DNA from: Chloroflexota bacterium
GTDB lineage: Bacteria; Chloroflexota; Limnocylindria; P2-11E
Length of the DNA: 64,000 nucleotides
Reading direction: 5' to 3'
Assembly: GCA_005889405.1 (NCBI GenBank)
Contig: VBFY01000058.1
Coordinates: forward strand, 1-64,000
The position numbers and the translations under genes are program-made. Shown one piece after another: positions 3,432 through 63,323 of the stretch. The notes beneath the pieces were generated by a model. It had not been told where the DNA came from. It searched no databases and worked only from the letters and a program-made list of their open reading frames with translations. Numbering within the stretch: the stretch's first letter is position 1; every line of letters starts with the position of its first letter.

Positions 3432-3495
3432 CAGCGGTCAATAGTCTTGTGAGAGTGCGACGGGCAGGCCGTGCTCCTCGATCCAGGCTGATCAG

Positions 3496-32861: not shown

Positions 32862-33763
32862 CCGCGCCGCTGCGCATCGGGCTCAAGCTGGGCGGGCAGG
32901 ACACGAGCGCCGACGAGCTGCGGGCGTTCTGGCGGATCGCGGACGATGCGGGATTCGACCACCTGTGGTGCCTCGACCTGTACGCGGCGATCGGCGACGC
33001 CGGCCCCGACCGCCCGATCTTCGAGGGGTGGGCCCTTCAGGCGGCGATGGCCGTCGCGACCACGCGTATCCGCATCGGCTGCACCTTCAGCGGCAACACG
33101 CATCGCCCGCCGTGGATGCTCGCCAAGCTCGCGGTGACCGTGGATCACCTCTCGCGTGGTCGGCTCGAGCTCGGCATCGGCGCGGGCTACGAAGAGACCG
33201 AGCATCGCATGTATGACATCGGCGGCCTCGATCACCGCGTCGGGCGACTGGCCGAATCCCTCGAATGCCTCAAACTCCTATGGACTCGTCAGCGCACGGA
33301 TTTCGCGGGCCGCTATTACACACTGCGTGACGCGATCGCCAATCCAAAGCCGATCCAGAAGCCGTATCCCCCGATCTGGGTCGGTGCCGGAGGTGATCAA
33401 ACGCTTCGCGTCGTCGCGCGTCACGCCGACGTGTGGAACTGTCCGGGAGGCGCGCGCCGTCTTCCGAATGGCGTGATCGAGATGACGCCGAAGCTCGCCG
33501 ACGCGGACCGGAGGCTCAGCGAGATCTGCGCGGAGATCGGGCGCGATCCGGCGAGCATCCGGCGCGCGGTCCAGCTCGAGTGGAACGGCGCGGACCCCGG
33601 GGTCCTCATCGAAAGCTCCGCGCGCTGGCTCGAGGCGGGGTTCACCGAGCAGATCGTCTACCTGAAGCCACCTGGTGCCCTGCGTACGGCGGAAGCCGCC
33701 GCCGCGACGCTGGACGAGTTGCGCGCGCTCGCGGCCCGTTCGTCCCCGCTGCCTCCTGACTGA
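32858..33763 (+). CDS. LLM-class F420/FMN-dependent oxidoreductase
   Basis: A 301-residue luciferase-like TIM barrel protein. IGLKLGGQDTSADELRAFWR, FDHLWCLDLYAAIG, RIGCTFSGNTHRPPWMLAK, LELGIGAGYEETEH and the C-terminal YPPIWVGAGGDQTLRVVARH are typical of F420-dependent LLM proteins. It overlaps the upstream MFS gene by four bases, so the two are coupled. Whether it modifies the transported compound is an inference from this coupling. Confidence 0.88.
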   Translation: MTAPLRIGLKLGGQDTSADELRAFWRIADDAGFDHLWCLDLYAAIGDAGPDRPIFEGWALQAAMAVATTRIRIGCTFSGNTHRPPWMLAKLAVTVDHLSRGRLELGIGAGYEETEHRMYDIGGLDHRVGRLAESLECLKLLWTRQRTDFAGRYYTLRDAIANPKPIQKPYPPIWVGAGGDQTLRVVARHADVWNCPGGARRLPNGVIEMTPKLADADRRLSEICAEIGRDPASIRRAVQLEWNGADPGVLIESSARWLEAGFTEQIVYLKPPGALRTAEAAAATLDELRALAARSSPLPPD

Positions 33764-33838
33764 AGCGCCGCAGCATCGGCACCTCCGATCGGACGCATCC
33801 GAACTCCCTATTGGACGCGAAGCACCGGCGACACTTTC

Positions 33839-36821: not shown

Positions 36822-36840
36822 GATATCGGCTTACGATACT
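36822..36840. promoter_or_regulatory. 19-bp GATATC palindrome
   Basis: GATATCG-GCTTA-CGATACT, between the divergent membrane-protein gene (start 36799) and the quinone-reductase fragment/chrA unit (start 36851). A rightward -10 candidate, TACGAT (36832-36837), overlaps the right arm. Confidence 0.65.
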
Positions 36841-39721: not shown

Positions 39722-40690
39722 TCACCGTCCGGCGATGCCGAGCTTCTCGAGTCCGACGCGGATCGCCCGCTGTTCCGCGGGGCCTCCCGGCGTCCCCATC
39801 GGCACGCCGTGACGCTCGCGGACGAGCGCCAGGCGGTCGTCGGCCGGGAGGAATGGGCAGTTCGCGCACAGCCGACCGAGCCGGTCGGAGAGATAGAAGG
39901 TGACGCAGCACACCCCGCGAACGTGGTGACCGTGCGGGAGGTCGGATGCCGGATCGGACCAGGTGAGGAGACTGGTCAGCGGGTTCGGCCCCGCGACCCC
40001 CGGGAGCACGGCCGCGCCGAGGACCGCGATCCGGTCCTCGACGAACGGCGCCGCGGCCGCGGGGGAGAGGTACTCGTCGGCGGTGTCGGACGTGAGCCCG
40101 ACCCACTCCGCCGCGTTGGTCCACATCAGGCGGGGGGAGACCTTCGTGATCTCGCGGGCCCGCTCGAAGAGGGGCGCGATGTTCTCGGCGTAGAGCTTGC
40201 GCCACACGTACGCGCGCAGCTCCGCGAGCGTCGGCACGATCGGCCCGGTCGCCGGGAGCGTCGTCGGACGCTCCGCGCAACGCATGGCCTCGTCCTCGCG
40301 GAGGTCGAGCGTCACGAGGAAGGGGATGTTGCTGCGGACGATGAGCCTGCATCGGGACGCGGAGAGGTCCAGGCCCACACCTCGGGCCAGCGCGACGAGC
40401 GCCACCGCGGAGATCGATGATGAGTATTGGCGCGTGAAGCGCGACACCGCGATGCGCAGGTCGGCATCGGCACCGTCGTCCGGGAGCTCGACCCCGTCGA
40501 CGTGATGTTTCGCATGCGCCTGCGTCGAGGCGGCGCGGGCGATCGCCGCGCGCAGGAAGTCGACATCGAGATATCGTTCCGCCGGAACGACCTCGTCCGT
40601 CGGCGCGGGCTCGGAGACAAGCCTGCCCTCAAACCATCGCTGGAGCTCGCCGAGCTGGGCGATCAGGGCGGTCGCGAGCGGGCCGCTCAT
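39722..40690 (-). CDS. FhuF-like ferric-siderophore reductase family protein (copy 1)
   Basis: A 322-residue protein with the FhuF architecture: a helical N-terminal region resembling the siderophore-binding part, and a C-terminal 2Fe-2S motif with cysteines 261, 262, 275 and 278 (GVCCVTFYL, then RLCANCPFL), i.e. CC-x12-C-x2-C. E. coli FhuF has CC-x10-C-x2-C. FhuF reduces ferric siderophores in the cytoplasm to release iron. The segment LPGVAGPNPLTSLLTW is also found, with small changes, in the paralogue at 48932. It is divergent from the Opp operon across the palindromes at 40716 and 40822. Confidence 0.75.
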   Translation of the reverse strand: MSGPLATALIAQLGELQRWFEGRLVSEPAPTDEVVPAERYLDVDFLRAAIARAASTQAHAKHHVDGVELPDDGADADLRIAVSRFTRQYSSSISAVALVALARGVGLDLSASRCRLIVRSNIPFLVTLDLREDEAMRCAERPTTLPATGPIVPTLAELRAYVWRKLYAENIAPLFERAREITKVSPRLMWTNAAEWVGLTSDTADEYLSPAAAAPFVEDRIAVLGAAVLPGVAGPNPLTSLLTWSDPASDLPHGHHVRGVCCVTFYLSDRLGRLCANCPFLPADDRLALVRERHGVPMGTPGGPAEQRAIRVGLEKLGIAGR

Positions 40691-40715: not shown

Positions 40716-40734
40716 GATATCGCCTAACGTTATA
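40716..40734. promoter_or_regulatory. 19-bp GATATC palindrome, FhuF/Opp intergenic, copy 1
   Basis: GATATCG-CCTAA-CGTTATA, 26 bases before the FhuF-like start on the minus strand; a further GATATC immediately to its left overlaps it. Confidence 0.65.
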
Positions 40735-40821
40735 GATGCGCAAGTCTACCTTCGCCGGGCGCTCCCAGCGGCGGGGGCGGCGCCTGACGGTCCGCGCGGC
40801 GGGGGTCTTGCATCGGCAGCC

Positions 40822-40840
40822 GATATCGCCGAACGTAAAC
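40822..40840. promoter_or_regulatory. 19-bp GATATC palindrome, FhuF/Opp intergenic, copy 2 (weaker)
   Basis: GATATCG-CCGAA-CGTAAAC. The left arm is perfect and the right arm keeps CGTAAAC. It lies 82 bases before the Opp permease start and is almost exactly 106 bases from copy 1, on the same face after ten helical turns. Confidence 0.5.
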
Positions 40841-40921: not shown

Positions 40922-41914
40922 GTGCTGACCTATCTCGCCCAGCGGATCGGCCTCGGCATCCTGACGATCTGGGTGGTATCCGTCCTGTCCTTCGTCATCA
41001 TCCAGTTGCCGCCGGGGGACTACGTCTCCACCTACCTGGCGCAGCTCGCGGAGCAGGGCAGCACCGCGTCCGCGGCCGAGGCCGAGAGCCTGCGTGTCGA
41101 ATACGGCCTCGATCAGCCGGTCTACGTCCAGTACGCGAAGTGGGTCTTCCAGATGGTCCAGGGCAACTTTGGCATGTCGCTCGACTGGAAGCGGCCCGTG
41201 GCGGACGTCATCGGCGACCGCCTTGCGCTCACGATGATCGTCACCGTGGCCGCGATCCTGTTCACCTGGATCCTCGCGCTCCCCATCGGGATCTACTCCG
41301 CCGTTCGCCAGTACTCCGTCGCGGACTATATCTTCACGTTCCTCGGCTTCCTCGGCCTCGCGGTGCCGAGCTTCCTCCTTGCGCTCGTCCTCATGTACTT
41401 CGGCTTCGTCGTGCTCAACGCAAACATCGGCGGGCTCTTCTCGCCGGAGTACGCGGACGCCCCGTGGAGCCTCGCGAAAGCCTGGGATCTGGCGCAGCAT
41501 CTTCCGATCCCGGCGCTCGTGCTCGGCCTCGCGGGGACCGCGCAGCTGGTGCGGATCATGCGTGCGAACCTGCTCGACGAGCTGCGCAAGCCGTATGTGA
41601 TCACCGCGCTCGCGAAGGGTCTCAGCGAGCGGCGGGCGATCCTCAAGTACCCGGTGCGCGTCGCCCTCAACCCCTTCGCGAGCTCGATCGCGTTCCTGTT
41701 CCCACAAGTCGTCTCGGGTTCGATCATCGTCTCGCTCGTGCTCAGCTTGCCGACCGTCGGTCCGCTGCTGCTCCGGGCGTTACTCGCGCAGGACATGTTC
41801 CTCGCGGGCACGATCGTGATGCTCATCGGGGTGTTGACCGTCATTGGGATACTCGTCTCGGACCTCATTCTCATGTGGCTCGACCCCCGGATCAGGTTGT
41901 ACGGGCGCCGCTGA
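40922..41914 (+). CDS. Opp/Dpp-family ABC transporter permease (OppB-like)
   Basis: A 330-residue inner-membrane permease. VLTYLAQRIGLGILTIWVV opens the protein, as usual for DppB/OppB; the GDYVSTYLAQ region, and the EAA loop containing ALAKGLSERRAILKYPVRVAL, are present, with about six membrane helices. GTG 40922 is chosen; the longer frame from ATG 40736 would include two operators. It forms a channel for peptides, nickel chelates, opines or other short organic ligands with the next gene. First of a four-gene operon. Confidence 0.9.
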   Translation: MLTYLAQRIGLGILTIWVVSVLSFVIIQLPPGDYVSTYLAQLAEQGSTASAAEAESLRVEYGLDQPVYVQYAKWVFQMVQGNFGMSLDWKRPVADVIGDRLALTMIVTVAAILFTWILALPIGIYSAVRQYSVADYIFTFLGFLGLAVPSFLLALVLMYFGFVVLNANIGGLFSPEYADAPWSLAKAWDLAQHLPIPALVLGLAGTAQLVRIMRANLLDELRKPYVITALAKGLSERRAILKYPVRVALNPFASSIAFLFPQVVSGSIIVSLVLSLPTVGPLLLRALLAQDMFLAGTIVMLIGVLTVIGILVSDLILMWLDPRIRLYGRR

Positions 41915-43104
41915 TGGCCACGGCCGCGAACATCGTCGTCACCCCGGTCGAGACGCCTCCGCCCGCGGCGCCGCCCGCTCCGACCGCCCCCGGGCTCGTC
42001 GACGGCCGCGTCGCCGAGGAGCGCGTGTCGGTCGCCTCGCAGTGGCAGCTCATGTGGTGGCGGTTCCGGAAGCATCGCCTCGCGATGGTGAGCGCCGGTA
42101 TCGTCGCGCTCTTCTACCTCGGGGTGATCTTCGCCGACTTCCTGGCGTACGCCGATCCGTACGCCTCCGAGGGGCAGCGCACCCTCCTTCCGCCCCAGGC
42201 CATCCACCTCTTTGACGACGGGCGCTTCGCGCCGTTCGTCTACGGCATCAAAGGCGAGCGGGATCTCACGACGTTCAAGCGCGTATACGTCGAGGACACG
42301 AGCCGGAAGCTGTACGTCCGTCCTTTCGCGACGGGGTTCGACTACAAGCTGCTCGGGTTCATCCCCACGAACATGCATCTCATCGGGCTCGACGGCGCGC
42401 CGACCGAGACGAACCTCTTCCTTCTCGGCGGTGACCTGCAGGGCCGCGATCTGTGGTCGCGCCTCATGTACTCGACGCAGACCTCGCTCACCATCGGCCT
42501 GGTGGGCGTCACGCTGAGTCTGCTGTTCGGCGTCGTGCTCGGCGGCATCGCGGGCTACTACGGCGGCTTCGCCGACACCGTGATCCAGCGGCTCATCGAG
42601 GTCCTGTTCTCCATCCCATCCATCCCGCTGTGGATGGGCCTCGCCGCCGCGATGCCGAGGGACTGGGGCATCGTGCAGGTCTACTTCGCGATCACCGTCA
42701 TCATCTCGCTCATCGGCTGGACGACGCTCGCGCGGGTCGTGCGCGGGCGTTTCCTGTCGCTCCGCGATGAGGACTTCGTCAAGGCCGCCGAGCTCGCGGG
42801 CGCGGGCCCGTGGCGGATCATCTTCGTGCATCTGGCGCCGCTCTTCCTCAGTCACATCATCGCCGCGACGACGCTCGCCCTGCCCGCGATGATCATCAGT
42901 GAGACCGCGCTCAGCTTCCTGGGGCTGGGCCTGCGTCCACCGGCCATGAGCTGGGGGGTGCTGCTCCAGCAGGCGCAGAACGTCCAGACCGTCGCGCTTT
43001 CACCTTGGCTGATGATCCCGGCGATCCCGGTGACGATCGTGATCCTCGCGTTCAACTTCCTGGGGGACGGCCTCCGCGACGCCGCGGACCCATATGGTGT
43101 GTAG
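41914..43104 (+). CDS. Opp/Dpp-family ABC transporter permease (OppC-like)
   Basis: A 396-residue permease. After an N-terminal cytoplasmic tail the OppC_N helix appears (WWRFRKHRLAMVSAGIVAL), then a long periplasmic insert (residues about 70-165), and the core with GRDLWSRLMYSTQTSLTIG, the EAA loop KAAELAGAGPWRIIFVHLAP and the C-terminal FLGDGLRDAADP. It couples by TGATG overlap to the upstream permease. The large insert is longer than usual for OppC but occurs in some Chloroflexota and Thermotogae members. Confidence 0.9.
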   Translation: MATAANIVVTPVETPPPAAPPAPTAPGLVDGRVAEERVSVASQWQLMWWRFRKHRLAMVSAGIVALFYLGVIFADFLAYADPYASEGQRTLLPPQAIHLFDDGRFAPFVYGIKGERDLTTFKRVYVEDTSRKLYVRPFATGFDYKLLGFIPTNMHLIGLDGAPTETNLFLLGGDLQGRDLWSRLMYSTQTSLTIGLVGVTLSLLFGVVLGGIAGYYGGFADTVIQRLIEVLFSIPSIPLWMGLAAAMPRDWGIVQVYFAITVIISLIGWTTLARVVRGRFLSLRDEDFVKAAELAGAGPWRIIFVHLAPLFLSHIIAATTLALPAMIISETALSFLGLGLRPPAMSWGVLLQQAQNVQTVALSPWLMIPAIPVTIVILAFNFLGDGLRDAADPYGV

Positions 43105-44159
43105 ATGAGCGCGAACATGGCGCTCCTCTCCGTGCGCGACCTGAGGACGTACTTCGTCGCCGACGAGGGGACGACGCGTGCCGTGGATGGCGCGACGTTC
43201 GACCTGTACGCCGGCAAGACGCTGGGCATCGTCGGCGAGACCGGCTGCGGGAAGAGCGTGACCGCTCGCTCGATCCTGCGGATCGTCGAGCGGCCGGGCC
43301 GGATCGTCAGCGGCGAGATCCTTCTGCAGCGCGACGGCGGCTACATCGATCTCGCGAAGCTCGATCCCGACGGCCGCGAGATCCGGCGGGTGCGGGGTGG
43401 GGAGATCGGGCTGGTCTTCCAGGAGCCGATGACCTCCTTCAGCCCGGTGCACACCGTGGGCGACCAGGTCATCGAGGCCATCCAGCTGCACCGGCGTCTC
43501 GACAAAGCGCGCGCGCGCGCGCGCGCGATCGAGCTGTTCCGGATGGTCGGCATCTCGCGGCCCGAGGGCCGGCTCGACGAGTACTCGTGGCAGCTCTCCG
43601 GCGGTCTGCGCCAGCGCGCGATGATCGCGATGGCCCTCGCTGCCGAGCCGCGCCTGCTCATCGCCGACGAGCCCACGACGGCGCTCGATGTGACGACCCA
43701 GGCGCAGATCCTCGAGCTCCTACGGGACCTGCAGCGCAAGACCCACATGGCGATCATGCTGATCACGCACGACCTCGGCGTCATCGCCGAAATGGCCGAC
43801 GATGTGGTGGTGATGTACCTCGGCCGCGTCGTCGAGCACGGTCCGGTCGACCAGATCTTCCATGCGCCGAAACATCCGTACACCCAGGCCTTGCTCCGCT
43901 CCATCCCGGGGATCCAGCACGAGGCGCGCGTGAAGCTGCCGACCATCAGCGGATCGATCCCGCATCCGTTCGCGCGGCCGGCCGGGTGTCCGTTCCACCC
44001 GCGGTGTGCGTTGGTCATGGCCTGCGCCGCCGCCCCGGACGGCGTCTGCTGCGATCATCACGAGCCCGAGCTCATCACCGTCGAGGAAGGGCACAGCGTG
44101 AGCTGCCATCTCTACCGGAAGAAGGGCGCCGCCGTGCCTCTCGCCCTGGAGTCCGCACG

Positions 44160-44163
<4 letters not shown>
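43105..44163 (+). CDS. Opp/Dpp-family ABC ATPase (OppD-like)
   Basis: A 352-residue ATP-binding subunit: Walker A GETGCGKS (residues 44-51), Q-loop VFQEPMTSFSPV, signature LSGGLRQRAMIAMA, Walker B LLIADEPTTALD, and switch His in LITHDLGVI. The C-terminal oligopeptide-transporter domain has the Cys-rich segment GCPFHPRCALVMACAA. It begins right at the OppC stop. A 21-base alternating GC run (43507-43527) encodes an Ala-Arg repeat and could be slippage-prone. Confidence 0.93.
43507..43527. repeat. alternating (GC) tract of 21 bases inside oppD
   Basis: The run codes for Ala-Arg repeats between the Q-loop and the signature motif. Replication slippage by one repeat unit (2 bases) would shift the frame, and such tracts can adopt Z-DNA. 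The frame is intact here. Confidence 0.6.
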
Positions 44164-45272
<1,109 letters not shown>

Positions 45273-45293: not shown

Positions 45294-46223
45294 TCATCGG
45301 CCCGCGAGCCGCGCGATCACCCGTGCCATCGGCTTCCCGTTCGCGTGGTTCGTCGTGACGTACGAAAGGCCGTAGCGCTCGCGTCGCGCGAGCAGCTGCT
45401 CAACGATGCCGTCGGTCGAGCCCGCGAGGACGTGCGGCGAGTCGAAGACCTCGGCCGCCGGGATCCCGAGGCGCACCTCGGCCTCTTGGACGACCTCGTC
45501 CCGCGGGCGGTCGATCGCGACGATGAACACCTGCACCTGCAGCTCGAGCTGGGCGAAGCGGTCCGGCGCGGCCGATCGGATCCATTCGATGCGCTGCGCG
45601 GTCGCGGACCCGGTCATGCTCGCCCCGTCCTGAACGCGTCCGCCGCCGCCGTTCAGGATCACGTGGACGCCCACAATGTCGGCGACGCGGGCCGCGACCG
45701 CGAGCATCCGCGGGCGGCCCCCGCCGACGAGGATCGGCGGGCCGGGCCGCTGGATCGGCTTCGGACGACCGTCGAGGTCGTGGATCTGGAAGTGGCGGCC
45801 TGTGAACGAGAAGGGCCCCTCGCCGAAGAGGCCGCGCATGATGAGCGCACCCTCCTCGAGGCGGCCGACACGAATTGCGGGCGGATCGAACGGGATCCCC
45901 GAGCGGTCGTAGTCGGCGACGTCCCATCCCGCCCCCAGACCGACCTCCGCACGTCCGTCGGACAGCACGTCGAGCGTCGCGACCTCCTTCGCGGTGATCG
46001 CCGGATGCCGGAAGTCGTTGTCGAGCACCAGCGTGCCAAGCCGCAGCCGGGTCGTCGCGGCGGCCGCGCAGGCGAGCGCGCTGAACGGGGCGAGCTGGTC
46101 GCGGAAATGGTCCGAGATGAGCAGGACGTCGAAGCCCATCGACTCGACGGACTGCGCCCGCTCGGTCCACTCGCGGCGGGAAGCTGCCGAATGCATGGCA
46201 AGGCCGAAACGGAAGGGCCTCAT
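45294..46223 (-). CDS. LLM-class F420-dependent oxidoreductase (TIGR03621-like)
   Basis: A 309-residue luciferase-like protein, paralogous to the one at 16841 (shared RPFRF N-terminus, ISDHFRDQLAPF, LGTLVLDNDFRHPAITAKE, LGAGWDVADYDRSG). ATG 46223 has a clean GGAGG site; the upstream frame extension would cover the palindrome. It is divergent from a CCG protein gene across the operator at 46262-46280 and convergent with oppF. Substrate unknown. Confidence 0.87.
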   Translation of the reverse strand: MRPFRFGLAMHSAASRREWTERAQSVESMGFDVLLISDHFRDQLAPFSALACAAAATTRLRLGTLVLDNDFRHPAITAKEVATLDVLSDGRAEVGLGAGWDVADYDRSGIPFDPPAIRVGRLEEGALIMRGLFGEGPFSFTGRHFQIHDLDGRPKPIQRPGPPILVGGGRPRMLAVAARVADIVGVHVILNGGGGRVQDGASMTGSATAQRIEWIRSAAPDRFAQLELQVQVFIVAIDRPRDEVVQEAEVRLGIPAAEVFDSPHVLAGSTDGIVEQLLARRERYGLSYVTTNHANGKPMARVIARLAGR

Positions 46224-48909: not shown

Positions 48910-48928
48910 GATATCGTGTGCCGCTATA
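48910..48928. promoter_or_regulatory. 19-bp GATATC palindrome
   Basis: GATATCG-TGTGC-CGCTATA, ending three bases before the annotated ATG 48932 of the FhuF-like gene. There is no room for a ribosome site, so the mRNA is leaderless or starts translation downstream (GTG 48947). Confidence 0.55.
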
Positions 48929-48931
48929 GCC

Positions 48932-49855
48932 ATGCGCACACGATTGGTGAACCACGGAGCGGACCCCGTCGCGACGGCGTCGAGCGATCTGGCCAGGGCG
49001 CTGCTCGAGGCCGTCGAGTCCGTGGGGCCGTACCAGCGCGCTTACCCGTTATTGCTGGAGACGCCGCCCGACATGGAGACGGTGCGCATCGAGGATCTCG
49101 TTCGGTCCGATGCGCTTCGCGCCTACGCCGTGCGGGCGGTCGCCGAGTGGTCGCATCATCCGATGGACGAGGATCCGCGCGCCGCGGTGTCGCGTCTCGC
49201 GCGCCGCTACCTCGGATCGGTCGTCACCGCGGTGCTCGCGCCGCTCGCCCACGGCGTCGGCATCGTTATCGACACCGGCCGCGTCCGCGCGATCGTGCAA
49301 CACGACCTGCCGCAGGGGATCGTGCTCGGTACGCATGAGGCGCTCCTGTGCCGCGAGCGTCCGGCGTCGTGGCCGATCGCGGGCATCGAGGTCGCCACGC
49401 TCGACGAGCTGCGCGACCGTGTCTTCGGCGCGCTCCTCGCGCACTGCGCGTGGGTCTTCGATCGCATCGTCGCCGCGATCAAGGTCTCGCCGCAGCTCCT
49501 GTGGAGCACCGCCGCCGAACAGGTCGACGTTCTCTACGACAACGCCGCCGACGGGCCGGCCGCGGCCGTGTTCGCGCGCGCCACGGCGGATCGGGATCGG
49601 CTGCTCCTCGCCGAGACGGTCCCCGGCGTCGCCGGTCCCAATCCGCTGCGCGACCTCCTCTACTGGGAGGCCGCGGCCGAGGGACCCGAGGCTGGCCACG
49701 TGTACCACGTGCGGCGCGTGTGCTGCGCGAACTTCGTGGTCCCCGGCCGGACGCAGGGCTACTGCCGCAACTGCGACCTCATCACGCCGGCGCAGCGCCT
49801 GGAGATGTGGAACGAGTGGCGTGAGTCGGTCCGCGTCCGGGGCAGGGTGAATTGA
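48932..49855 (+). CDS. FhuF-like ferric-siderophore reductase family protein (copy 2)
   Basis: A 307-residue protein with the FhuF C-terminal cluster motif: cysteines 264, 265, 278 and 281 (RRVCCANFVV, then GYCRNCDLI), CC-x12-C-x2-C. It shares with copy 1 the segment VPGVAGPNPLRDLLYW and the pattern of a Trp/Asn-Ala-Ala block (KVSPQLLWSTAAEQ against KVSPRLMWTNAAEW). It probably reduces a bound ferric chelate. Start ATG 48932 follows the annotated frame; GTG 48947 is possible. It is operonic with dapB (2-base gap). Confidence 0.75.
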   Translation: MRTRLVNHGADPVATASSDLARALLEAVESVGPYQRAYPLLLETPPDMETVRIEDLVRSDALRAYAVRAVAEWSHHPMDEDPRAAVSRLARRYLGSVVTAVLAPLAHGVGIVIDTGRVRAIVQHDLPQGIVLGTHEALLCRERPASWPIAGIEVATLDELRDRVFGALLAHCAWVFDRIVAAIKVSPQLLWSTAAEQVDVLYDNAADGPAAAVFARATADRDRLLLAETVPGVAGPNPLRDLLYWEAAAEGPEAGHVYHVRRVCCANFVVPGRTQGYCRNCDLITPAQRLEMWNEWRESVRVRGRVN

Positions 49856-49857
49856 CG

Positions 49858-50658
49858 ATGTCGCTCCGCGTCGGCGTCGTCGGGGCCACGGGGAAGATGG
49901 GGCGCGTCGTCTGTGCGCAGGTCCTCGAGGATCCCGCGCTCGAGCTCGTCGCGGCGGTCGCGCGGTCGAATGCCGGTGCGCCATTCGATACCTACGTCGG
50001 CCGCAGCACCGGCCTCCCGGTGTCCGACCGCCGCGAGGCGCTGCTCGAGGCGCGTGCGCAGGTCGCCGTCGATTTCACGCATCCCGATGCCGTGCTCGCG
50101 AACGCGCGCTGGTACCTCGAGCACGGGCTTCACGCCGTCGTCGGCACCACCGGACTCGGGCCGGACGACGTCGAAGCGCTGCGCGCGCTCGCCGAGAAGA
50201 ACGGGACGAACGCGGTGGTGGCGCCGGACTTCTCGTTCGGCGGCGCGGTGCTGCTGCACATCGCGCGCATCGCCGCGCGGCACTTCCCGTACGTCGAGCT
50301 CCTCGAGACGCACCTGCCGTCGAAGGCCGAAGCGCCCAGCGGCACGACGATGAACACCGCACGCGAGCTCGCGAAGGTGCGGCCATCACCCTCGCCCGTC
50401 GTGACTTCCCGCGAGCTCGCACCCGGCGTGCGAGGCGGCGAGGTCGCGGGCATCCGCGTGCATTCGCTCCGCCTCCCTGGTCCGCCGGGCATCGAGGAGA
50501 TTCGTCTCGCGCGCGCCGGCGAGCTCCTCACGATCAGCCTCGCCGCGTACGACCGTGCCCCCTTCGCGAATGGCGCGGTCCTGGCGATCAAGGCGGTCGC
50601 GTCGCGGCCCGGTCTCACGTACGGTCTCGGGCCGCTCCTCGATCTCGATGGTGACTGA
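49858..50658 (+). CDS. dapB: 4-hydroxy-tetrahydrodipicolinate reductase
   Basis: A 266-residue DapB that reduces HTPA to tetrahydrodipicolinate in diaminopimelate synthesis. The Rossmann motif VGATGKMGR, VDFTHPDAV, GTTGLGPDDVEAL and the substrate motif KAEAPSGTT are present, with the catalytic His retained (ETHLPSK), though the usual second His of HHxxK is Leu. VVAPDFSFGG replaces the usual APNFS, a small departure. ATG 49858 has AGGGTGA upstream; TTG 49852 is an alternative. It lies between a FhuF-like gene and a MmgE/PrpD gene rather than beside dapA, which is unusual. Confidence 0.88.
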   Translation: MSLRVGVVGATGKMGRVVCAQVLEDPALELVAAVARSNAGAPFDTYVGRSTGLPVSDRREALLEARAQVAVDFTHPDAVLANARWYLEHGLHAVVGTTGLGPDDVEALRALAEKNGTNAVVAPDFSFGGAVLLHIARIAARHFPYVELLETHLPSKAEAPSGTTMNTARELAKVRPSPSPVVTSRELAPGVRGGEVAGIRVHSLRLPGPPGIEEIRLARAGELLTISLAAYDRAPFANGAVLAIKAVASRPGLTYGLGPLLDLDGD

Positions 50659-51994
50659 GGCGATCGCGACCGCGACGGCGAGCGAGCGCCTCGCGCGCTC
50701 TGTGGCCGACCTCCGCCTCGAGGACCTGCCGCGCGAAGTGCTCACGAAGGCCAAGGAGCAGGTCGCGTATCACGTGGCGCACGCGCTGCGGGGACATCGT
50801 CATGAGGATGGGCGGCGCGCTCTGGCCATCGCGGCATCGCTGAGCGAAGGCGCGGGCGCGGGAACGATCATCGGCTCCGCGTCGCGCGCGCTCCCGATGG
50901 ATGCGGCGTTCGCGAACAGCACGCTCATGCGCGCGACGGGGATGGACGACGTCATCTTCCCGGCGGGCGTGCACGCGGCGCTCGTGACTCTGCCGCCCGC
51001 GCTCGCCCTCGCGGAGCGGCACCACCGGTCGGGTGCGGAGCTGCTGGTCGCGCTCGTCGCAGGCTACGACGCGATCGCGGCGGTCGCGATGGACATTGAG
51101 GCCTGGGGCGCTCGGGAACCACGGCGGCCGACGATCCCGTTCGGCCCGTTCGGCGGCGCGGCGGCGGCCTGCCGCATCCTTGATCTCGACGCCACGCGGA
51201 TCGCATCCGCGTTCGGCTATGCGGCGCACTCCGCGATGGGGCTGGCCGAGCAGGGCGGCGACTGGCCCCACTACTACGCGCTCGTGGCGCGAAACGGGAT
51301 GATGGCCGCGCTCCTCGCGCAGGCCGGCGCGACGACGAGCCGGACGATCCTCGAGGGCCGTTATGGCTTCTACGAGACGTTCTTCGGCTCGGTGCCCGCG
51401 GGGCTCGACGAGTCGTTCGCGCGGATCGGCGAGCCTCACGCGATCCTCGAGGCGACGACGAAGCGCTACCCGGGTACCGGAGCGAACATCGTCGCGGTCG
51501 AGCTGGTGCGTGAGATGCTGCGCGCCCACGGCCTGGCGCCGCGGCGCATCGCTCGCATCGATCTCACCCTGCCGTCAGAGCGGGAGAACTTCACCGCCGG
51601 GCACCATCGGGCGCCGTTCCGGCCCTGGTGGGCGGCTTCGTCGGTGCTGTTCCAGGTCGCGATCGTGATCCTCGACGGCGGTCGCACGGACTTCGCGCGC
51701 TACGAGCGGCCCAACGCGCCGGAGATCGACGCGCTCATCGATCGCATGCACGTCTCCTTCGAACCCGACCACGGCTTCCAATTCGCGCGGGTGCGTGTCG
51801 CGACCACCGACGGCGCGGTCCACGAGGGTGAGGCCGAGCGCTACCGCTTCCCGCCGATCGACGCGGCGCGGGAGATCGCCGACGCCGGCCGCGAACTGGT
51901 CCCCGCACCACAGCTCGCGCGCGCGGCCGAGCTCATCGCGGGTCTCGAGTCGGTCGACGACGTCGCGACGCTGATGGAGGCCCTGCGGCCCTGA
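50648..51994 (+). CDS. MmgE/PrpD family protein
   Basis: A 448-residue all-helical MmgE/PrpD fold protein. Typical segments are TKAKEQVAYHVAHALRG, AFANSTLMRATGMDDV, GAELLVALVAGYDAIAAVAMD, and AFGYAAHSAMGLAEQGGDW. The family includes 2-methylcitrate dehydratase, cis-aconitate decarboxylase and iminodisuccinate epimerase, an aminopolycarboxylate-degrading enzyme. The last is of interest because of the racemase, LDH2 and FhuF-like genes nearby, but sequence does not decide. ATG 50648 overlaps dapB by 11 bases; GTG 50651 is an alternative. Confidence 0.85.
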   Translation: MVTEAIATATASERLARSVADLRLEDLPREVLTKAKEQVAYHVAHALRGHRHEDGRRALAIAASLSEGAGAGTIIGSASRALPMDAAFANSTLMRATGMDDVIFPAGVHAALVTLPPALALAERHHRSGAELLVALVAGYDAIAAVAMDIEAWGAREPRRPTIPFGPFGGAAAACRILDLDATRIASAFGYAAHSAMGLAEQGGDWPHYYALVARNGMMAALLAQAGATTSRTILEGRYGFYETFFGSVPAGLDESFARIGEPHAILEATTKRYPGTGANIVAVELVREMLRAHGLAPRRIARIDLTLPSERENFTAGHHRAPFRPWWAASSVLFQVAIVILDGGRTDFARYERPNAPEIDALIDRMHVSFEPDHGFQFARVRVATTDGAVHEGEAERYRFPPIDAAREIADAGRELVPAPQLARAAELIAGLESVDDVATLMEALRP

Positions 51995-56064: not shown

Positions 56065-56888
56065 CGCTGAACGTGTCGGACCTCGAGTCGATCGTTGTCG
56101 AGGCGGGAACGCGGCCGGACGCGGTGAAGGACCCCGAGGTCCGTCGGGCGATCGAGGAGACGATCGACCGGCTCGACCGTGGCGAGATCCGCGTCGCCGA
56201 GAAGGTCGACGGCGAGTGGAAGGTCAACAGCTGGATGCAGCAGGCCATCGCGCAGTACTTCCGGATCCCGCCGATGGCGACGATCCCCTCCGGGACGTTC
56301 GAGTACCACGACAAGCTCCCGCTGAAGCGTGATCTCGCGCGGCAGGGCATCCGCATGGTGCCCGGCGGGATCATCCGCTACGGCGCGCACCTCGAGGCGG
56401 GCGTCGTCGTGATGCCGGGCTTCATCAACATCGGCGCGTACGTCGGGAGCGGGACCCTCGTGGACACGTGGGCCACGGTCGGCAGCTGCGGCCAAGTCGG
56501 TCGCAATGTCCACCTCGCGGGTGGCGCCGGTATCGGCGGCGTCCTCGAACCCGCCGGCTCGAAACCGGTGATCGTCGAGGACAACGTCTTCATCGGCTCA
56601 CGCTGCATTCTCGTCGAGGGCGTCTTGGTGGAGGAGGGCGCGGTCCTCGCGGCGAACGTGTCGCTCACCGGGTCGACGCACATCATCGACGTGACGAAGG
56701 AAGAGCCGATCACCTACAAGGGCCGCGTGCCGCCGCGCTCGATCGTCGTTCCCGGGACGCGGTCGCGGAAGTTCCCCGGCGGCGAATTCCAGATCGCCTG
56801 CGCGCTCATCATCGGTGAGCGCTCGGCGCGGACCGAGGGCAAGGTCTCGCTGATGGAAGCGGCGCGCGAATTCGGCGTGAGCCTGTGA
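56061..56888 (+). CDS. dapD: tetrahydrodipicolinate N-succinyltransferase
   Basis: A 275-residue left-handed beta-helix acyltransferase. SWMQQAIAQYFRIPPMATI, the DapD signature VRMVPGGxxRxGA-type block (RMVPGGIIRYGAHLEAGV), PGFINIGAYVGSGTLVDTW and hexapeptide repeats (VHLAGGAGIGGVLEP) identify DapD, the succinylase-branch enzyme of diaminopimelate synthesis. It is embedded between a CoA-transferase and a racemase in an operon starting with a ThDP enzyme, an odd place for a housekeeping dap gene. Confidence 0.92.
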   Translation: MTLNVSDLESIVVEAGTRPDAVKDPEVRRAIEETIDRLDRGEIRVAEKVDGEWKVNSWMQQAIAQYFRIPPMATIPSGTFEYHDKLPLKRDLARQGIRMVPGGIIRYGAHLEAGVVVMPGFINIGAYVGSGTLVDTWATVGSCGQVGRNVHLAGGAGIGGVLEPAGSKPVIVEDNVFIGSRCILVEGVLVEEGAVLAANVSLTGSTHIIDVTKEEPITYKGRVPPRSIVVPGTRSRKFPGGEFQIACALIIGERSARTEGKVSLMEAAREFGVSL

Positions 56889-57622
56889 CGCGGCTCGTCC
56901 GTGGCGGCAAGGCTGCCTACGGCCAGGACGTCGGGATCCTCATGATGGACAACACCTTCGCGCGGCTCCCCGGAGACATCGGTAACGCGATGACGTTCGA
57001 GTTCCCGGTCCAGTTTCGCGTGATCGACGGGTCGACCAATGAGCGCATCGTGTGGGAGCGCGATCGCGCGCTTCTCGCCCCGTACGTCGGCGCGGCGCAG
57101 GAGCTCGAGCGTTCGGGTGTCCGCGCGATCACGACCTCCTGCGGCTTCCTCGCGATGTTCCAGCCCGAGCTCGCCGCCAGCGTACACGTCCCGCTCTTCA
57201 CCTCGAGCCTCCTCCTCGTGCCGCTCGTGAAGCGGATGATCCGTCCTGACCAGCGCGTCGGGATCATCACCGCCGACTCGAGCGCGCTTGACGAGACGCA
57301 CTTCAATGCCTGCGGCTGGTCGGCCACCGAGATCCCCGTCGCGCTCGAGGGGATGCAGGCGCGCTCGGCCTTCTGGGACGCCTACCCGAAGAACGCGCTG
57401 GAGTACGACGTCGATGCGGTCGCCGCGGACATGCGCGACGCCGCGGTCGCGCTCCTGCGCGAGCATCCCGATGTCGGTGCCATCGTCCTCGAGTGCACGA
57501 ACATGGCTCCCTACGCGCACGTGGTGCAGGAGGCGACCGGCCTGCCGGTGTTCGACGTGCAGACGCTGACGAATCTCGTGTACGAGGCGACGCACCGCGT
57601 CCCGTATGGCGACGGCCGATGA
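56885..57622 (+). CDS. Asp/Glu/hydantoin racemase family protein (paralogue)
   Basis: A 245-residue paralogue of the protein at 16101: DVGILMMDNTFARLPGDIGN, AITTSCGFLAMFQPEL (first Cys), VLECTNMAPYAHVV (second Cys). Start GTG 56885 overlaps the dapD stop by four bases. The pairing of dapD with this gene here, and of lysA with its paralogue in the other operon, suggests that both racemase-like proteins act on related dicarboxylic or amino compounds. Confidence 0.83.
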   Translation: MTRLVRGGKAAYGQDVGILMMDNTFARLPGDIGNAMTFEFPVQFRVIDGSTNERIVWERDRALLAPYVGAAQELERSGVRAITTSCGFLAMFQPELAASVHVPLFTSSLLLVPLVKRMIRPDQRVGIITADSSALDETHFNACGWSATEIPVALEGMQARSAFWDAYPKNALEYDVDAVAADMRDAAVALLREHPDVGAIVLECTNMAPYAHVVQEATGLPVFDVQTLTNLVYEATHRVPYGDGR

Positions 57623-58040: not shown

Positions 58041-58239
58041 TGAGCGAGGTCGTGACGGGTTGCAGCGAAGGATGCCGAAGTACCTCTAGCTTGCAACCTG
58101 ACAAGCCCTCGCGCTGGACTTTTTCGACCGGCCCAGCATCGACCATTCGACCGCGATCCTGCCTCCGGCGGGACCTGGAGCAGTGGACGGACTCGCGATC
58201 CCCGAGGACGGCAGCACAACGGGTAGTGGAGGGATGAAC
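58041..58239. other. 199-base intergenic region before the binding-protein gene
   Basis: No gene, palindrome or clear terminator. The only T-run (GGACTTTTT, about 58119-58127) is not preceded by a strong stem. It presumably holds the promoter of the binding-protein gene. Confidence 0.35.
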
Positions 58240-60324
58240 GTGCACAGGCAGTCACACGCTCGTCGCATCTCACGTCGCGAGCTTCTCAAGATCTCCGCAG
58301 CGGCGAGCGCTGCGTCGCTTCTCGTCGCGTGTTTCCCGCAGGCCACGCCGTCCGCGTCGCCGGGAGCAAGCGGAACGCCGCAGACCGCCGGCAAGTACGC
58401 CCTCGGCAAGCTCGGAGGGCCCGAGGTCATCACCGACGCGTCCAAGTTCCCGAAGACGTTCAAGGAGGCGCCCGAGCTTGCCGCGCTCGTGCAACAGGGC
58501 AAGCTTCCACCTGTCGCCGATCGTATCGGCCAAGACCCCATCGTCCTGAAACCCCTCGAGGGCATCGGGAAGTACGGAGGCACGCTCCGCAAGGCGCTCT
58601 TTGGCGGCGTCACGGCGGAGCTGACCGCCTATAAGTTCGGCGTGGGTCCAAGCAGCCTGTTCTACTGGGACCCGACCCGGACGAAGGTCGTCCCCAACCT
58701 CGCGCTCGGCTACGAGGAGAGCGCCGATGGGAAGACGCTCACCGTGCATCTCCGCCGCGGGCTGCGCTGGAACGACGGCGAGCCGTTCACCGCCGACGAC
58801 ATCATGTTCTGGTTCGAGGACATCTACCAGAACAAGCAGCTCTACACGCCCGGGACGAGCACGGATCTCTTGATCGCCGGGAAGCCGGTCGCGATCGAGA
58901 AGGTCGATCAGTACACCGTCCGGTACGTCTCGCCCGAGCGGAACAGCCTCATGATCCAGCGGCTCGCTTCTCCGCTCAGCGACGTGGGCGGGAACACCTT
59001 CCGCGTCGCGCGCGGCGGCTATCAGCCGAAGCACTACCTCATGAAGTTCCACCCCAAGTACGCGGCGGGTGGCCAAGCGGCCGTCGACAAGATGGCGACC
59101 GACGCCAAATTCAACGGGTGGGTCCCGTTCTTCCAGGACCGCGTGACCTGGCAGAACAACCCCGACTACCCCCTGATGTCGCCGTGGAAGGTCACCGTCC
59201 CGATGAACAATCCGACCCAGTTCGTCATGGAGCGCAACCCCTACAGCCCGTGGGTCGACACCGACGGCAACCAGCTCCCATACATCGGCAAGCTCCAGTA
59301 CACCGCCGCGGACAACCTGGAGGTCGTGGCGACGCGCGCGGTGGCGGGCGAGTACGACTTCCAGGAGAACATCCTCGGCGTGGACAAGCTTCCGGTGCTC
59401 ATCGACGGCCAGACTCGGGGCGGCTACAAGGTCTACCTCGACCCGGAGCAGGGGGCCATCGGGATCATGATCAACCTCGCGTACGAAGACGACCCCGAGA
59501 TCGGCGAGTGGTACCGCAACGTCGACTTCCGGCGTGCGCTGTCCCTGGGCATCGACCGGAGTCAGATCAACGAGACGTTCTTCCTCGGCACGGGGATCCT
59601 GAGCTCATCCGCGCCGAGTGACGACAACCTCTACTTCCCGGGCAAGGAGTGGCGTACGAAGTGGGCGACGCTCGACATCGCCCAGGCGAACCAGCTCCTC
59701 GACAAGATCGGCCTCACGCAGAAGGACAGCGACGGCTACCGGCTGCGCAAGGACGGCAAGGGCCGCCTCCGCCTCGCCTTCACCGGCGTCGCGCGTCTTG
59801 GCGTCGACGGCGCGCAGCTCGGCGAGATGGTCAAGCAGCACTGGCAGAAGATCGGCATCCAGCTCGATGTCGACAACGTGGCGAGCGCGCTGGCCCAACA
59901 GCGGATCGCCGCCAACCAGACGCAGATGGTCCTGAACGCCGTGGCCACGGAGGACGTCTACCTCTTCACCGGCACGCTCACACCGGGCGGCGGCGGCTTC
60001 TCCGCGATCATCGGCGTCCCGTACGGCCAATGGCTCACCTCGGGCGGCAAGCAGGGCAAGGAGCCGTTCCCGGCCCTCAAGCAGGCGATGGATCTGCTCG
60101 AGAAGGGCAAGACCCAGTCGGACCCGGAGCGCACCGAGACGGCCAAGGAGCTCTTCCGCCAGCACATCGACAATGTCTTCACGATCGGGATCGTCTCGGC
60201 CGACCTGAACCAGGGCGTCCGCATCGCCAAGACGACCCTCGGCAACGTCCCGGCCCGCATCGTGAACTCCAACCTGGCCCAGTCGCCCGTGAACGCCAGC
60301 CCACAGACTTTCTACTTCAAGTAG
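58240..60324 (+). CDS. Opp/Dpp-type substrate-binding lipoprotein
   Basis: A 694-residue family 5 extracellular solute-binding protein. The signal peptide has a twin-arginine motif (SRRELLK at residues 11-17), a hydrophobic core and a lipobox LLVAC, so it is a Tat-exported lipoprotein with Cys31 as its anchor. The mature part shows the SBP_bac_5 blocks VHLRRGLRWNDGEPFTADDI, FRRALSLGIDRSQI and the C-terminal ELFRQHIDNVFTIG. GTG 58240 is preferred because GGAGGG ends six bases before it; ATG 58234 directly abuts that site. It likely serves the OppBCDF operon at 40922, which lacks its own binding protein. Ligand unknown. Confidence 0.9.
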   Translation: MHRQSHARRISRRELLKISAAASAASLLVACFPQATPSASPGASGTPQTAGKYALGKLGGPEVITDASKFPKTFKEAPELAALVQQGKLPPVADRIGQDPIVLKPLEGIGKYGGTLRKALFGGVTAELTAYKFGVGPSSLFYWDPTRTKVVPNLALGYEESADGKTLTVHLRRGLRWNDGEPFTADDIMFWFEDIYQNKQLYTPGTSTDLLIAGKPVAIEKVDQYTVRYVSPERNSLMIQRLASPLSDVGGNTFRVARGGYQPKHYLMKFHPKYAAGGQAAVDKMATDAKFNGWVPFFQDRVTWQNNPDYPLMSPWKVTVPMNNPTQFVMERNPYSPWVDTDGNQLPYIGKLQYTAADNLEVVATRAVAGEYDFQENILGVDKLPVLIDGQTRGGYKVYLDPEQGAIGIMINLAYEDDPEIGEWYRNVDFRRALSLGIDRSQINETFFLGTGILSSSAPSDDNLYFPGKEWRTKWATLDIAQANQLLDKIGLTQKDSDGYRLRKDGKGRLRLAFTGVARLGVDGAQLGEMVKQHWQKIGIQLDVDNVASALAQQRIAANQTQMVLNAVATEDVYLFTGTLTPGGGGFSAIIGVPYGQWLTSGGKQGKEPFPALKQAMDLLEKGKTQSDPERTETAKELFRQHIDNVFTIGIVSADLNQGVRIAKTTLGNVPARIVNSNLAQSPVNASPQTFYFK

Positions 60325-60445: not shown

Positions 60446-61672
60446 CTATCCGTGCCTCGCCGGCTCCGTCCGCCAGTGCCGACCCGACCAGCGGTGCGCT
60501 GGCGCAAGGGCAAGCAGGATCACGGCGACGCCGATGACGATCGCGCCGTTCAGCGCCAGCGCCCACGCCGCGCCACCCAGGCTCACCAGCGTTCCGGCTT
60601 CGAGCTGACCGAGCGGGCCGGAGCCGATGCTGAGGAGGTAGACCCCCATGGCCCGTCCACGTTGGCTGACGGGTACGGCGAGCTGCATGAGCGTGTACTG
60701 CAAGACGTCGAACGCGCCGTTGCATACGCCGACGACGAGCATGATCGCAACCGCCATCGCAACGCTCGTGCTCGCCCCGAGGGCGATGAGCGACGCGCCG
60801 AAGGCGGCGGCCGACAGGCTGAGGAGCGGCTCACGACGGACGCGCGCCGGCAGAAGTGACAACGCCACGACGGCGACGGTCGCGCCCACCGACGCCGAGC
60901 CCGTGAGCGCGCCGAGGGCCTGCGGACCCGATCGCAGGACATCGCGCACGAGGACGGGCACGGCGGAGCTGAACGAGTACGCGAAGACCTCAGCCGCGAT
61001 GGCGGCGAGCGCGAGCGTGCGGAGCGTGGGCACGTCGAGCACGAGGCGCGTGGCCTCCCGCAGCGCGAGCGCGAACGGAATGGCGACCCATTCGGCGGAG
61101 TCGGCTCGCCGCACGCGGAGCGGAAGCACGAACGCGGCGGCGAGCGCGTACGCGACGCCGACAGCGAGGTAGCACGCCGCCGTCCCGAAGGTCGCGATAA
61201 GCGCGCCGCCGGCGAACGCGCCGGCGGCCTTCGACAGCCGGTCGCCGAGCGACACGCTGGCGACGGCGTTCGGCGCGATCTCGCGTCCCGCGATGTCGAG
61301 CGCGAGCGCCTGACGCGCGGGAATGTCCATCACTTGAAGACACCCGTTCGCAAGGCCGATCGCGATCACCTGCCACGGCACGAGGCCCACCGTCGCGACG
61401 AAGTAGGTGACGGCAGTCATCACGCTCACGCCGGAGACGGCCGTCGCAAGAAGGATTGCGCGACGATCGAACCGGTCGGCGATGGTCCCGGCGGTGAGCC
61501 CGAAGAGGAGCTTCGGGAGCGAGCGCGCCGCGAGCGCGGCACCGACCGCGAGCGGTCCGCCCGCCGTCAGGGCGAGCCACGAGGTGGCCGTGAGCTCGAG
61601 ATGCTGCGCCGCGCCGACGCCGAGCGTTGACAGCCAGAGCCATCTGAAACCGGGGGACCGCATGAGGGACAC
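60446..61672 (-). CDS. EntS-like MFS exporter (MFS_3 family, copy 2)
   Basis: A 408-residue MFS carrier related to the protein at 38374. AAQHLELTATSWLALTAGG in helix 1, GLTAGTIADRFDRRAILLAT after helix 2 and SLGDRLSKAAGAFAGGALIA are typical of the EntS/MFS_3 group. Start GTG 61672 (ATG 61663 is an alternative) has no ribosome site; the GATATC palindrome is 15 bases upstream, and TATCAT (from its arm) may be a -10 for a very short leader. It lies downstream of the CCG gene at 61744 but has its own promoter. Confidence 0.85.
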   Translation of the reverse strand: MSLMRSPGFRWLWLSTLGVGAAQHLELTATSWLALTAGGPLAVGAALAARSLPKLLFGLTAGTIADRFDRRAILLATAVSGVSVMTAVTYFVATVGLVPWQVIAIGLANGCLQVMDIPARQALALDIAGREIAPNAVASVSLGDRLSKAAGAFAGGALIATFGTAACYLAVGVAYALAAAFVLPLRVRRADSAEWVAIPFALALREATRLVLDVPTLRTLALAAIAAEVFAYSFSSAVPVLVRDVLRSGPQALGALTGSASVGATVAVVALSLLPARVRREPLLSLSAAAFGASLIALGASTSVAMAVAIMLVVGVCNGAFDVLQYTLMQLAVPVSQRGRAMGVYLLSIGSGPLGQLEAGTLVSLGGAAWALALNGAIVIGVAVILLALAPAHRWSGRHWRTEPARHG

Positions 61673-61686
61673 GTGCGAGGGTCAAT

Positions 61687-61705
61687 GATATCGCTTTTCG
61701 ATATC
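61687..61705. promoter_or_regulatory. 19-bp GATATC palindrome, perfect
   Basis: GATATCG-CTTTT-CGATATC, perfect 7-bp arms, between the exporter start (61672) and the CCG-protein stop (61744). Confidence 0.75.
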
Positions 61706-61743: not shown

Positions 61744-63072
61744 TCAGGCGGGTCGCACCGCTCCGCTCAGCACGTCGACCGAGATGAGTTGCTCCTGACA
61801 CCCGCCCTCGCCCCCGCACGCGCAGCGTGACGGGCCGTCCGCATAGGCAGGATCGAAGATCGCCTGAGCGAGCGTCCGCGCACGCTCCTCGCGCATCCCC
61901 CAGGAGCTCCACATCGGTCGCGTCTGTTCGAGGATCGCTTCCGGATCGCCGAGCTTGCACGCGGCCTGGTAGCGGTCCGGGCTCGCGCACCCAAGGGCGT
62001 CCGCAAGCAGCGATATCGGATGCCGGACCGCGAGGCGATCGCTGGAGAACCGCGACCACCACTGCTGGCCGGTGTGGTGCGTCGCGCTCATCGTGTCCGC
62101 ACCTCGCGCCGCGAACAGATCGGCCAGCCTCTCGCGTCGCCGCTCCACGTCGTGGCGCGAGAGTGCCGGGTCGTTCACGATCGTCTCCGCGTTCCCGTGC
62201 CCGGCGATGCGGTCGATCTCCGGGTCGACGAAGCCGACCACTTCGACTCCGGGGATCATCGCGAGAACGCGCGCGCACGTCTCGGTGGCCTCGACATGGA
62301 CGGGGCTGCCGCCGGCCCGCAGCACCAGCACCTTCGCCCCGACCTCGCGCTGCCAGGGCACGCGCTCGCCGAGCTTGCGCAGGGTTTGCTCGAGGAGCGT
62401 GTACATCTGCACGTTCGCGGGGAGCTGTGTGCCGAGCAGCCGCTCGCGGCGCTCGATCATGCTGAAGGTGTTCTGGCAGTTCGTGCACATGTGCGCGGTG
62501 AGCGAGGCTCCCCATGCGACGCTGCGCGCCACCGACGCCGCGTGCATGCGCTCTGCCTGTTTCAGGTCTTTGTAGTGGCGGTAGTACGTCCCGCAGCAGA
62601 AGAGGCGGCCGGCACCCGCGGCGAAGTTGACGCCGAGCGCCCGCAGCACGCCCACCGTATCGAGGATCAGGTGAGGCGTGTGCTGCGGGCCGCAGCTCAT
62701 GTTCACGAACACGTCAACCGCACCGTCGGGTGCGACGTTGCGCTCGATCCACACGGTCTCTTCCTTCGACACGAGGAGGTGGCCGGCATCCTCGAGGTCA
62801 CCCCAGAACCGCGCGTAGTTCGGCCGCTCGCGCGGGACGTCCGCGCCGATGTTCGCGAGCCACGCGTCGTACAAGCGCTGCGGCGCGATCCCAGCGAGCG
62901 CCGCGCAGATGCGCTCGAGCTCGTCGAGCGTCGGCAGGATGTCGCCGCCCTCGATGTGCGCGTACCACGAGGGCTCGATGCCAGCCAGGGACGCCAGCCG
63001 CTCGGGGGCGTCGAACCCGGCCCTGGTCCGCTCCTGCGCCAGGTGGTTGGGGTAGGGAACCGTCGCGGTCAT
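61744..63072 (-). CDS. HTH-CCG fusion protein (paralogue)
   Basis: A 442-residue paralogue of the protein at 19374. Residues 8-65 form the helical DNA-binding-like domain (LASLAGIEPSWYAHIEGGD, then ELERICAALAG). The CCG module has C127, CC at 159-160 and CTNC at 196-199 (C-x31-CC-x35-C-x2-C). The Cys-rich tail is CACGGEGGCQEQ followed by LISVDVLSG. Two copies with the same domain order show that the fusion is not an assembly accident. A redox- or iron-sensing regulator is possible; no GATATC palindrome lies at its own start. Confidence 0.8.
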   Translation of the reverse strand: MTATVPYPNHLAQERTRAGFDAPERLASLAGIEPSWYAHIEGGDILPTLDELERICAALAGIAPQRLYDAWLANIGADVPRERPNYARFWGDLEDAGHLLVSKEETVWIERNVAPDGAVDVFVNMSCGPQHTPHLILDTVGVLRALGVNFAAGAGRLFCCGTYYRHYKDLKQAERMHAASVARSVAWGASLTAHMCTNCQNTFSMIERRERLLGTQLPANVQMYTLLEQTLRKLGERVPWQREVGAKVLVLRAGGSPVHVEATETCARVLAMIPGVEVVGFVDPEIDRIAGHGNAETIVNDPALSRHDVERRRERLADLFAARGADTMSATHHTGQQWWSRFSSDRLAVRHPISLLADALGCASPDRYQAACKLGDPEAILEQTRPMWSSWGMREERARTLAQAIFDPAYADGPSRCACGGEGGCQEQLISVDVLSGAVRPA

Positions 63073-63225: not shown

Positions 63226-63323
63226 CCCGGGGATCATCGCGCGGACCGATCGCTCCCATCCGATCATTCGATTGGTCACGCGACCTCGTCGTCCGTAGGC
63301 TCGGTGCCGGTCGGAGGTGTCTG

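Follow-up and report, generated by a model that had tools for sequence, protein, structure and literature searches.

HTH-CCG genes of contig C32

The window, meaning the whole stretch of DNA analysed here, comprises the first 64 kb of a 95.6-kb contig (C32) of a Chloroflexota bacterium. A search of the whole genome with the protein P1 leads to four places, all of them on this contig, and these are the genes P2, P4, P1 and P3. P1 (61744-63072, minus strand, 442 aa from an ATG) joins an XRE-type HTH domain (residues 6-75, 62848-63057, minus strand; Pfam HTH_31) to an HdrB-like part (residues 119-373, 61954-62718, minus strand). P2 (19374-20759, minus strand, 461 aa) has the same domain order, with its start taken as the ATG at 20759, the mechanical open reading frame continuing to 21023. 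P4 (46291-47460, plus strand, 389 aa) is a CCG-family protein in which no HTH was found with Pfam, and P3, another HTH-CCG protein, lies at 68868-70259 of C32, which is 4.9 kb past the end of the window.

The first CCG module of P1 keeps all five cluster ligands (C127, C159, C160, C196 and C199), while its second module is degenerate in the alignment. The five-cysteine set of CCG and HdrB-type proteins, C-x31..39-CC-x35..36-C-x2-C, is present in P1, P2 and P4, where a script check returned the spacing C-x31-CC-x35-C-x2-C, beginning at C127, C129 and C65, respectively, so that the five ligands are intact in each; they are also intact in two rows from a sister genome (G010). The set is incomplete in P3, which retains the x31 and x35 spacings and ends in CTAD, with Asp replacing the last Cys. 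Most ligands of the second module are absent from all seven rows of the family alignment (A2). The Pfam scores vary among the paralogues: HTH_31 reaches 31.1 bits in P1 (cut-off 27), 25.7 bits in P2 as a whole protein and 28.5 bits with its N-terminus alone (below and above the cut-off), and stays below the cut-off in P3 (18.5 bits whole, 24.1 for the domain), while CCG (PF02754) scores 15.6 bits in P1, below its cut-off of 20.6, 31.6 bits in P2 and 36.4 bits in P4. Neither a Fer4 match (Pfam, E up to 1) nor an HdrC domain was found in P1, P2 or P4. The HTH-CCG fusion is real. The sequence-only reading, which had described an HTH joined to an equally spaced CCG module at 19374-20759 and 61744-63072 and a third paralogue at 46291 devoid of the HTH, is borne out by Pfam, script and, for the fusion, structure, and the genome-wide search for the same domain order that it proposed yielded P3 as a further copy. 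The fusion was not found in the prior art searched.

The AlphaFold2 model of P1, built from a five-row alignment, has a mean pLDDT of 68.7 and a pTM of 0.75; it places five helices in residues 11-72, with pLDDT block means of 81-92 over residues 11-60 and values below 50 at 74-105, 291-303 and 408-442. Foldseek searches with this model put EtfD, LutA and HdrB at the top, with 7 chains at E up to 0.001, and the first 1000 Foldseek chains were re-aligned with VIA-align 2. Residues 119-373 align with HdrB at Z 14.1-15.0 over about 236-241 residues, with EtfD at 14.2 and with LutA at 13.0, and residues 6-75 align with the XRE domains of C.AhdI (Z 10.2), C.BclI (10.0) and SinR (9.8), as well as with DNA-bound PlcR (Z 9.9, 1.6 A over 64 residues). 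Searched against the PDB, a profile built from the three HTH domains matched the HigA3 antitoxin (E 0.0033); folding the HTH by itself, with no alignment, produced a poor model (mean pLDDT 59.7), which was set aside. The N-terminus thus matches XRE regulators at a Z of about 10, and a non-HTH N-terminus, which the earlier reading had named as the finding that would count against it, was not obtained. The five-helix HTH is shared with C.AhdI, C.BclI, SinR, PlcR and HigA3, and Pfam HTH_31 is found in P1 and P2; unlike in those regulators, the HTH is joined here to a CCG module, the domain is acidic, and any DNA binding is putative.

Relatives and distribution

CCG modules are familiar from redox proteins of respiration and methanogenesis, and in GlpC a ferredoxin domain lies in the same chain as the CCG part. 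Outside the family, the closest relatives found have the order ferredoxin-CCG-CCG (read by eye) and a length of 419-435 aa; they comprise weakly matching proteins of two further Chloroflexota genomes (identities of 27% and 25%) and one protein encoded on a plasmid of Ilyobacter. Together with the GlpC proteins, they agree with the sequence-only view of CCG modules as enzyme parts. P1 resembles HdrB, EtfD, GlpC and LutA in the fold of residues 119-373 and in the ligand set of the noncubane [4Fe-4S] cluster, but the XRE domain takes the place of the ferredoxin part and the second CCG module has lost most ligands. In EtfD, according to PMC13083937, the noncubane ligands are C637, 672, 673, 709 and 712, which corresponds to spacings of x34, x35 and x2.

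A tree of the core separates the eight family rows from three outside rows (support 100/99) and pairs P4 with the orthologue in G010 (96/98), to which it is 69.9% identical across 302 columns. It does not unite the HTH-bearing rows in a single supported group, because P1 branches from an open fork together with a row that lacks the HTH. Identity in the HTH compared with the rest of the protein amounts to 50.8% vs 35.8% for P1/P2, 43.1% vs 41.6% for P1/P3 and 56.9% vs 49.5% for P2/P3, and the HTH appears to be conserved between paralogues at least as well as the remainder.

Within the Chloroflexota genomes, genome contigs (by pattern scan), plasmids and viral contigs searched, the HTH-CCG fusion is very rare. 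P1 matches 2 of 61 near relatives at E 1e-5, its own genome counted, and 3 of 400 genomes of the phylum at 1e-6, these being its own genome and the two distant ferredoxin-CCG-CCG matches; the CCG family was not found in the other 4 genomes of the genus (E 1e-5). Alignment A2 matches 3 of 177 genomes of the class at 1e-10, namely the own genome, G010 (the sister genome) and, weakly, G001, and the pattern scan of genome contigs returned 2 loci, both in one Chloroflexi genome. Plasmids gave no match to P1 and 18 records with P4, mostly glpC, with the Ilyobacter ferredoxin-CCG-CCG protein at the lowest E-value, while viral contigs searched with A2 gave 29 pattern matches and no relative. The sister genome holds four family genes, three without an HTH and one HTH-CCG gene, which lies at a contig end, is frame-shifted in the assembly and has the same domain order. 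Two sister-genome matches with one internal TGA each were considered as selenocysteine candidates and rejected on reading, because one has an ordinary stop at the 3' end (locus L029) and the other changes frame close to its 3' end (L030).

Contig setting and palindromes

The setting is the stronger of the new results: the genome's four CCG-family genes and four FhuF-like genes all lie on contig C32, as does a PadR gene (76446-76922). Two FhuF-like genes lie in the window (48947-49855, plus strand, Pfam FhuF 36.8 bits; 39722-40690, minus strand, 26.1 bits), both encoding CC-x12-C-x2-C, and two lie beyond it (67020-67856 and 73837-74823). The cluster motif begins with CC-x12 in three of the four proteins and CC-x13 in one, followed by C-x2-C, in contrast to the CC-x10-C-x2-C of the FhuF siderophore reductase as given in PMC8068687; the name FhuF-like was chosen because the latter motif is absent and Pfam FhuF is above its cut-off in only 3 of the 4. 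YqjI/NfeR is a PadR-type iron regulator, and YqjI stands among the iron regulators of FeGenie (PMC7005843); the PadR protein found here shares C32 with the FhuF-like proteins. FhuF was found in 2 of 28 genomes of the bacterial family, this one and G010, and the CCG family and a close PadR (71% identity) occur in the same 2; for two families each present in 2 of 28 genomes the chance of an identical pair is 1 in 378, and one shared transfer may explain both genomes.

A 12.5-kb contig of G010 carries the PadR gene with relatives of the C32 chromate transporter (68%), of both peptide-type ABC ATPases (75%), of a luciferase-like protein (41%) and of the C32 genes 81079 (72%) and 5098 (40%), which are DapL and DapF by eye; much of the island is thus common to the two genomes. 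Both ends of C32 carry a repeat (3184-3471 and about 91403-91864) that possibly marks the island borders and recurs on other contigs of the genome and in relatives at 74-89% identity. Directly behind P1 and on the same strand lies an MFS_3 transporter gene (60446-61672, minus strand; Pfam MFS_3, E 1.1e-35), and the G010 HTH-CCG gene is divergent to an MFS gene. P3 is followed on its strand by a weak match to DUF2703 (10272-10631 of locus L027; 17.1 bits, below the cut-off) and an AhpC/TSA protein (10679-11308 of L027), a thiol-redox neighbourhood, and a 158-aa helical protein of no Pfam family lies directly before P2 on the same strand (20770-21246). Two DapB-type reductase genes (49858-50658, and 74823-75647 of C32) each adjoin a FhuF-like gene. 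C32 further carries luciferase-like monooxygenases, a DAO oxidase, MmgE/PrpD, an Asp/Glu racemase and a peptide-type ABC transporter (together at 16841-17743, 32858-33763, 45294-46139, 35102-36370, 50648-51994, 56885-57622, 40922-45272 and 58183-60324), which, together with the FhuF-like reductases and by comparison with the EDTA and iminodisuccinate pathways, could conceivably be a set for the breakdown of a metal chelate or metallophore; a literature search gave nothing decisive on this idea. No RNA families or tRNAs were found within the window.

A perfect inverted repeat before the Ldh_2 gene supplied the pattern GATATCGG-N3-CCGATATC, which has 7 matches in the window with up to 3 mismatches, against 0.34 expected, and none of 100 shuffles reaches 7. 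In the form GATATCG-N5-CGATATC, all 5 genome sites with up to 1 mismatch lie on C32, as do 11 of the 25 with up to 2 mismatches (one overlapping another), this contig being 3.1% of the sequence. Sites are found 11 bp before P4 (46262-46280), 19 bp before the FhuF-like gene 48947 (48910-48928, 2 mismatches) and 26 bp before the FhuF-like gene 39722-40690 (40716-40734, 2 mismatches), with a weaker copy between the latter gene and an ABC permease gene (40809-40827). Copies with perfect arms lie between P1 and the MFS_3 gene, 15 bp before the latter (61687-61705), and before the Ldh_2 gene, 511 bp upstream of P1 (63583-63601). Further sites are found ahead of a small membrane-type gene that belongs to no Pfam family (36822-36840, 2 mismatches), within a predicted gene near its start (6748) and at 78640 and 82353 of C32; two overlapping ones lie upstream of the PadR gene, at distances of 63 and 76 bp (76352 and 76365 of C32), and one site lies 10 bp before a molybdopterin oxidoreductase gene. 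The FhuF-like genes 67020 and 73837 have no such site, and none lies near the starts of the HTH-CCG genes. G010 has a single site when up to 1 mismatch is allowed, positioned 22 bp ahead of its P4 orthologue, so that the palindrome before the HTH-less CCG gene is kept in both genomes that have this gene; the PadR start of G010 is preceded by a site with one good half (score 15.0). The overlapping pair at the PadR gene itself makes PadR, we infer, the likeliest reader of the palindrome, and a PadR regulon across iron, transport and redox genes of C32 is likely from the placement of the sites; the E. coli nfeF-nfeR gap, a known PadR operator, contains no good match to it.

A different palindrome, ATCGG-N5-CCGAT, is common to P1 and P3 when the four upstream stretches are compared, against an average of 0.08 in 200 shuffled sets. 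Its 3 exact sites on C32 lie before P1 (63113-63127, 41 bp before the start), before P3, within the predicted first codons of a divergent LysR gene, and 50 bp before the MFS gene 33839 (33775-33789); they are candidate operators of the HTH-CCG proteins. When one mismatch is allowed, a second copy appears beside both the P1 site (63236-63250, 164 bp before the P1 start) and the P3 site, and 6 of 13 sites are non-coding, compared with 9.1% of C32 (binomial 0.0005); none of eight control half-sites, at any of three spacings, had more than 1 non-coding match. The motif was found post hoc, partly from the same sites that were later counted, its totals are not clearly above those of shuffles (9 vs 5.7 in the window and 4 vs 1.8 in L027), and P2 has no copy upstream. 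The HTH domains are acidic (net charge -5 in P1, -2 in P2 and -2 in P3); among the other HTH_31 matches of the genome, 8 of 10 carry net charges of +2 to +11, and the two negative ones (-3 and -2) look by eye like RodZ and ParB. An HTH motif can contact protein, as SepH binds FtsZ (PMC7968930).

Possible regulators or redox partners

The best, though tentative, explanation is that the HTH-CCG proteins are descendants of GlpC/HdrB-type proteins acting as local transcription regulators. A redox ancestor of this type would have given rise to a protein in which the ferredoxin part is absent, one cluster site is left and an XRE domain is carried. The first CCG module, with the ligands present in the sequences of P1 and P2, would hold one noncubane-type [4Fe-4S] cluster, whose loss or change with iron or thiol/redox status would alter the XRE domain; this domain would bind ATCGG-N5-CCGAT before its own gene, where the palindrome occurs in pairs in the case of P1 and P3, and might also do so ahead of transporter genes in the vicinity. 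The HTH-less P4 would be a working redox protein of the same iron system, with PadR controlling P4 and the FhuF-like reductases through GATATCG-N5-CGATATC, as suggested by the sites and the co-occurrence; the palindrome common to P4 and FhuF-like genes and its retention before the G010 orthologue of P4 support this part. A regulatory role is favoured by the XRE fold, the conservation of the HTH, the same domain order in G010, the intact ligands of P1 and P2, the paired palindromes, the MFS_3 gene behind P1 and the MFS gene divergent to the G010 HTH-CCG gene. Against it stand the acidic HTH, the ligand loss in P3, a post hoc palindrome that is not above shuffles in total and is missing at P2, the HTH rows unsupported as one tree group and the lack of a GATATCG site near HTH-CCG starts, while the HTH-less state of three of the four G010 family members argues against a DNA-binding sensor. 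A sensor role is possible for the HTH-CCG proteins. The more specific proposal, in which the HTH-CCG proteins are transcription factors and an HdrB-type noncubane [4Fe-4S] cluster serves them as a sensor of iron or of thiol/disulfide state, is on balance unlikely. The bridging cysteine of HdrB is taken here to be the last cysteine of the motif. The bridging cysteine of each ligand set is displaced by substrate in HdrB, according to PMC13083937, and P3, with Asp at the last ligand, might be a fixed-state variant.

A plausible alternative, nearly as likely as the regulator, is that all CCG-family proteins are redox or iron-release partners of FhuF-like [2Fe-2S] ferric reductases, with the XRE-like domain docking or dimerising instead of binding DNA. 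It accounts better for the HTH-less members, which are the majority in G010, and for the co-occurrence of four FhuF-like and four CCG-family genes on one contig and of both families in the same 2 of 28 genomes; the palindrome common to P4 and FhuF-like genes and the acidity of the HTH fit it too, as do the SepH-FtsZ precedent (PMC7968930) and CCG proteins such as EtfD that carry electrons (PMC13083937). However, it leaves the paired palindromes before P1 and P3 unexplained, no ferredoxin domain is left for electron relay, and P1 and P2 are outside the control of the GATATCG palindrome. Both readings could be true at once, with P4 as the partner and P1 to P3 as the regulators.

It is rather improbable that the HTH-CCG proteins lack a cluster, or hold another metal such as zinc, and either regulate in response to another signal or are decaying copies: the family-wide degeneracy of the second CCG module, the Asp ligand of P3 and the sub-threshold CCG score of P1 point that way, but the five first-module ligands are kept in P1, P2, P4 and the two G010 rows, the open reading frames are full-length and the HTH is conserved. 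A binning error of the contig together with an assembly artefact behind the fusion, which the absence of the family from the other four genus genomes (E 1e-5) and a listed contamination of 4.64% might suggest, is highly improbable, given three HTH-CCG genes with the same domain order and one more in another genome, a G+C of 0.694 for C32 compared with 0.652-0.710 in 15 loci on other contigs of the genome, and the repeat near 91.4-91.9 kb, which is found again on contigs C51 and C57 and in genomes of the same genus, with DNA identity of up to 89%.

If the regulator reading with cluster sensing is true, the HTH-CCG proteins would be a new class of cluster-sensing regulator built from a redox enzyme, extending the small set of iron-sulfur regulators by one cluster type and one fold; they would form such a class only given DNA binding that depends on the cluster. 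Even without sensing, the shared palindrome ties together CCG proteins, FhuF-like ferric reductases and a PadR regulator, and the island offers a testable route to the redox partners and the control of FhuF-like reductases in Chloroflexota.
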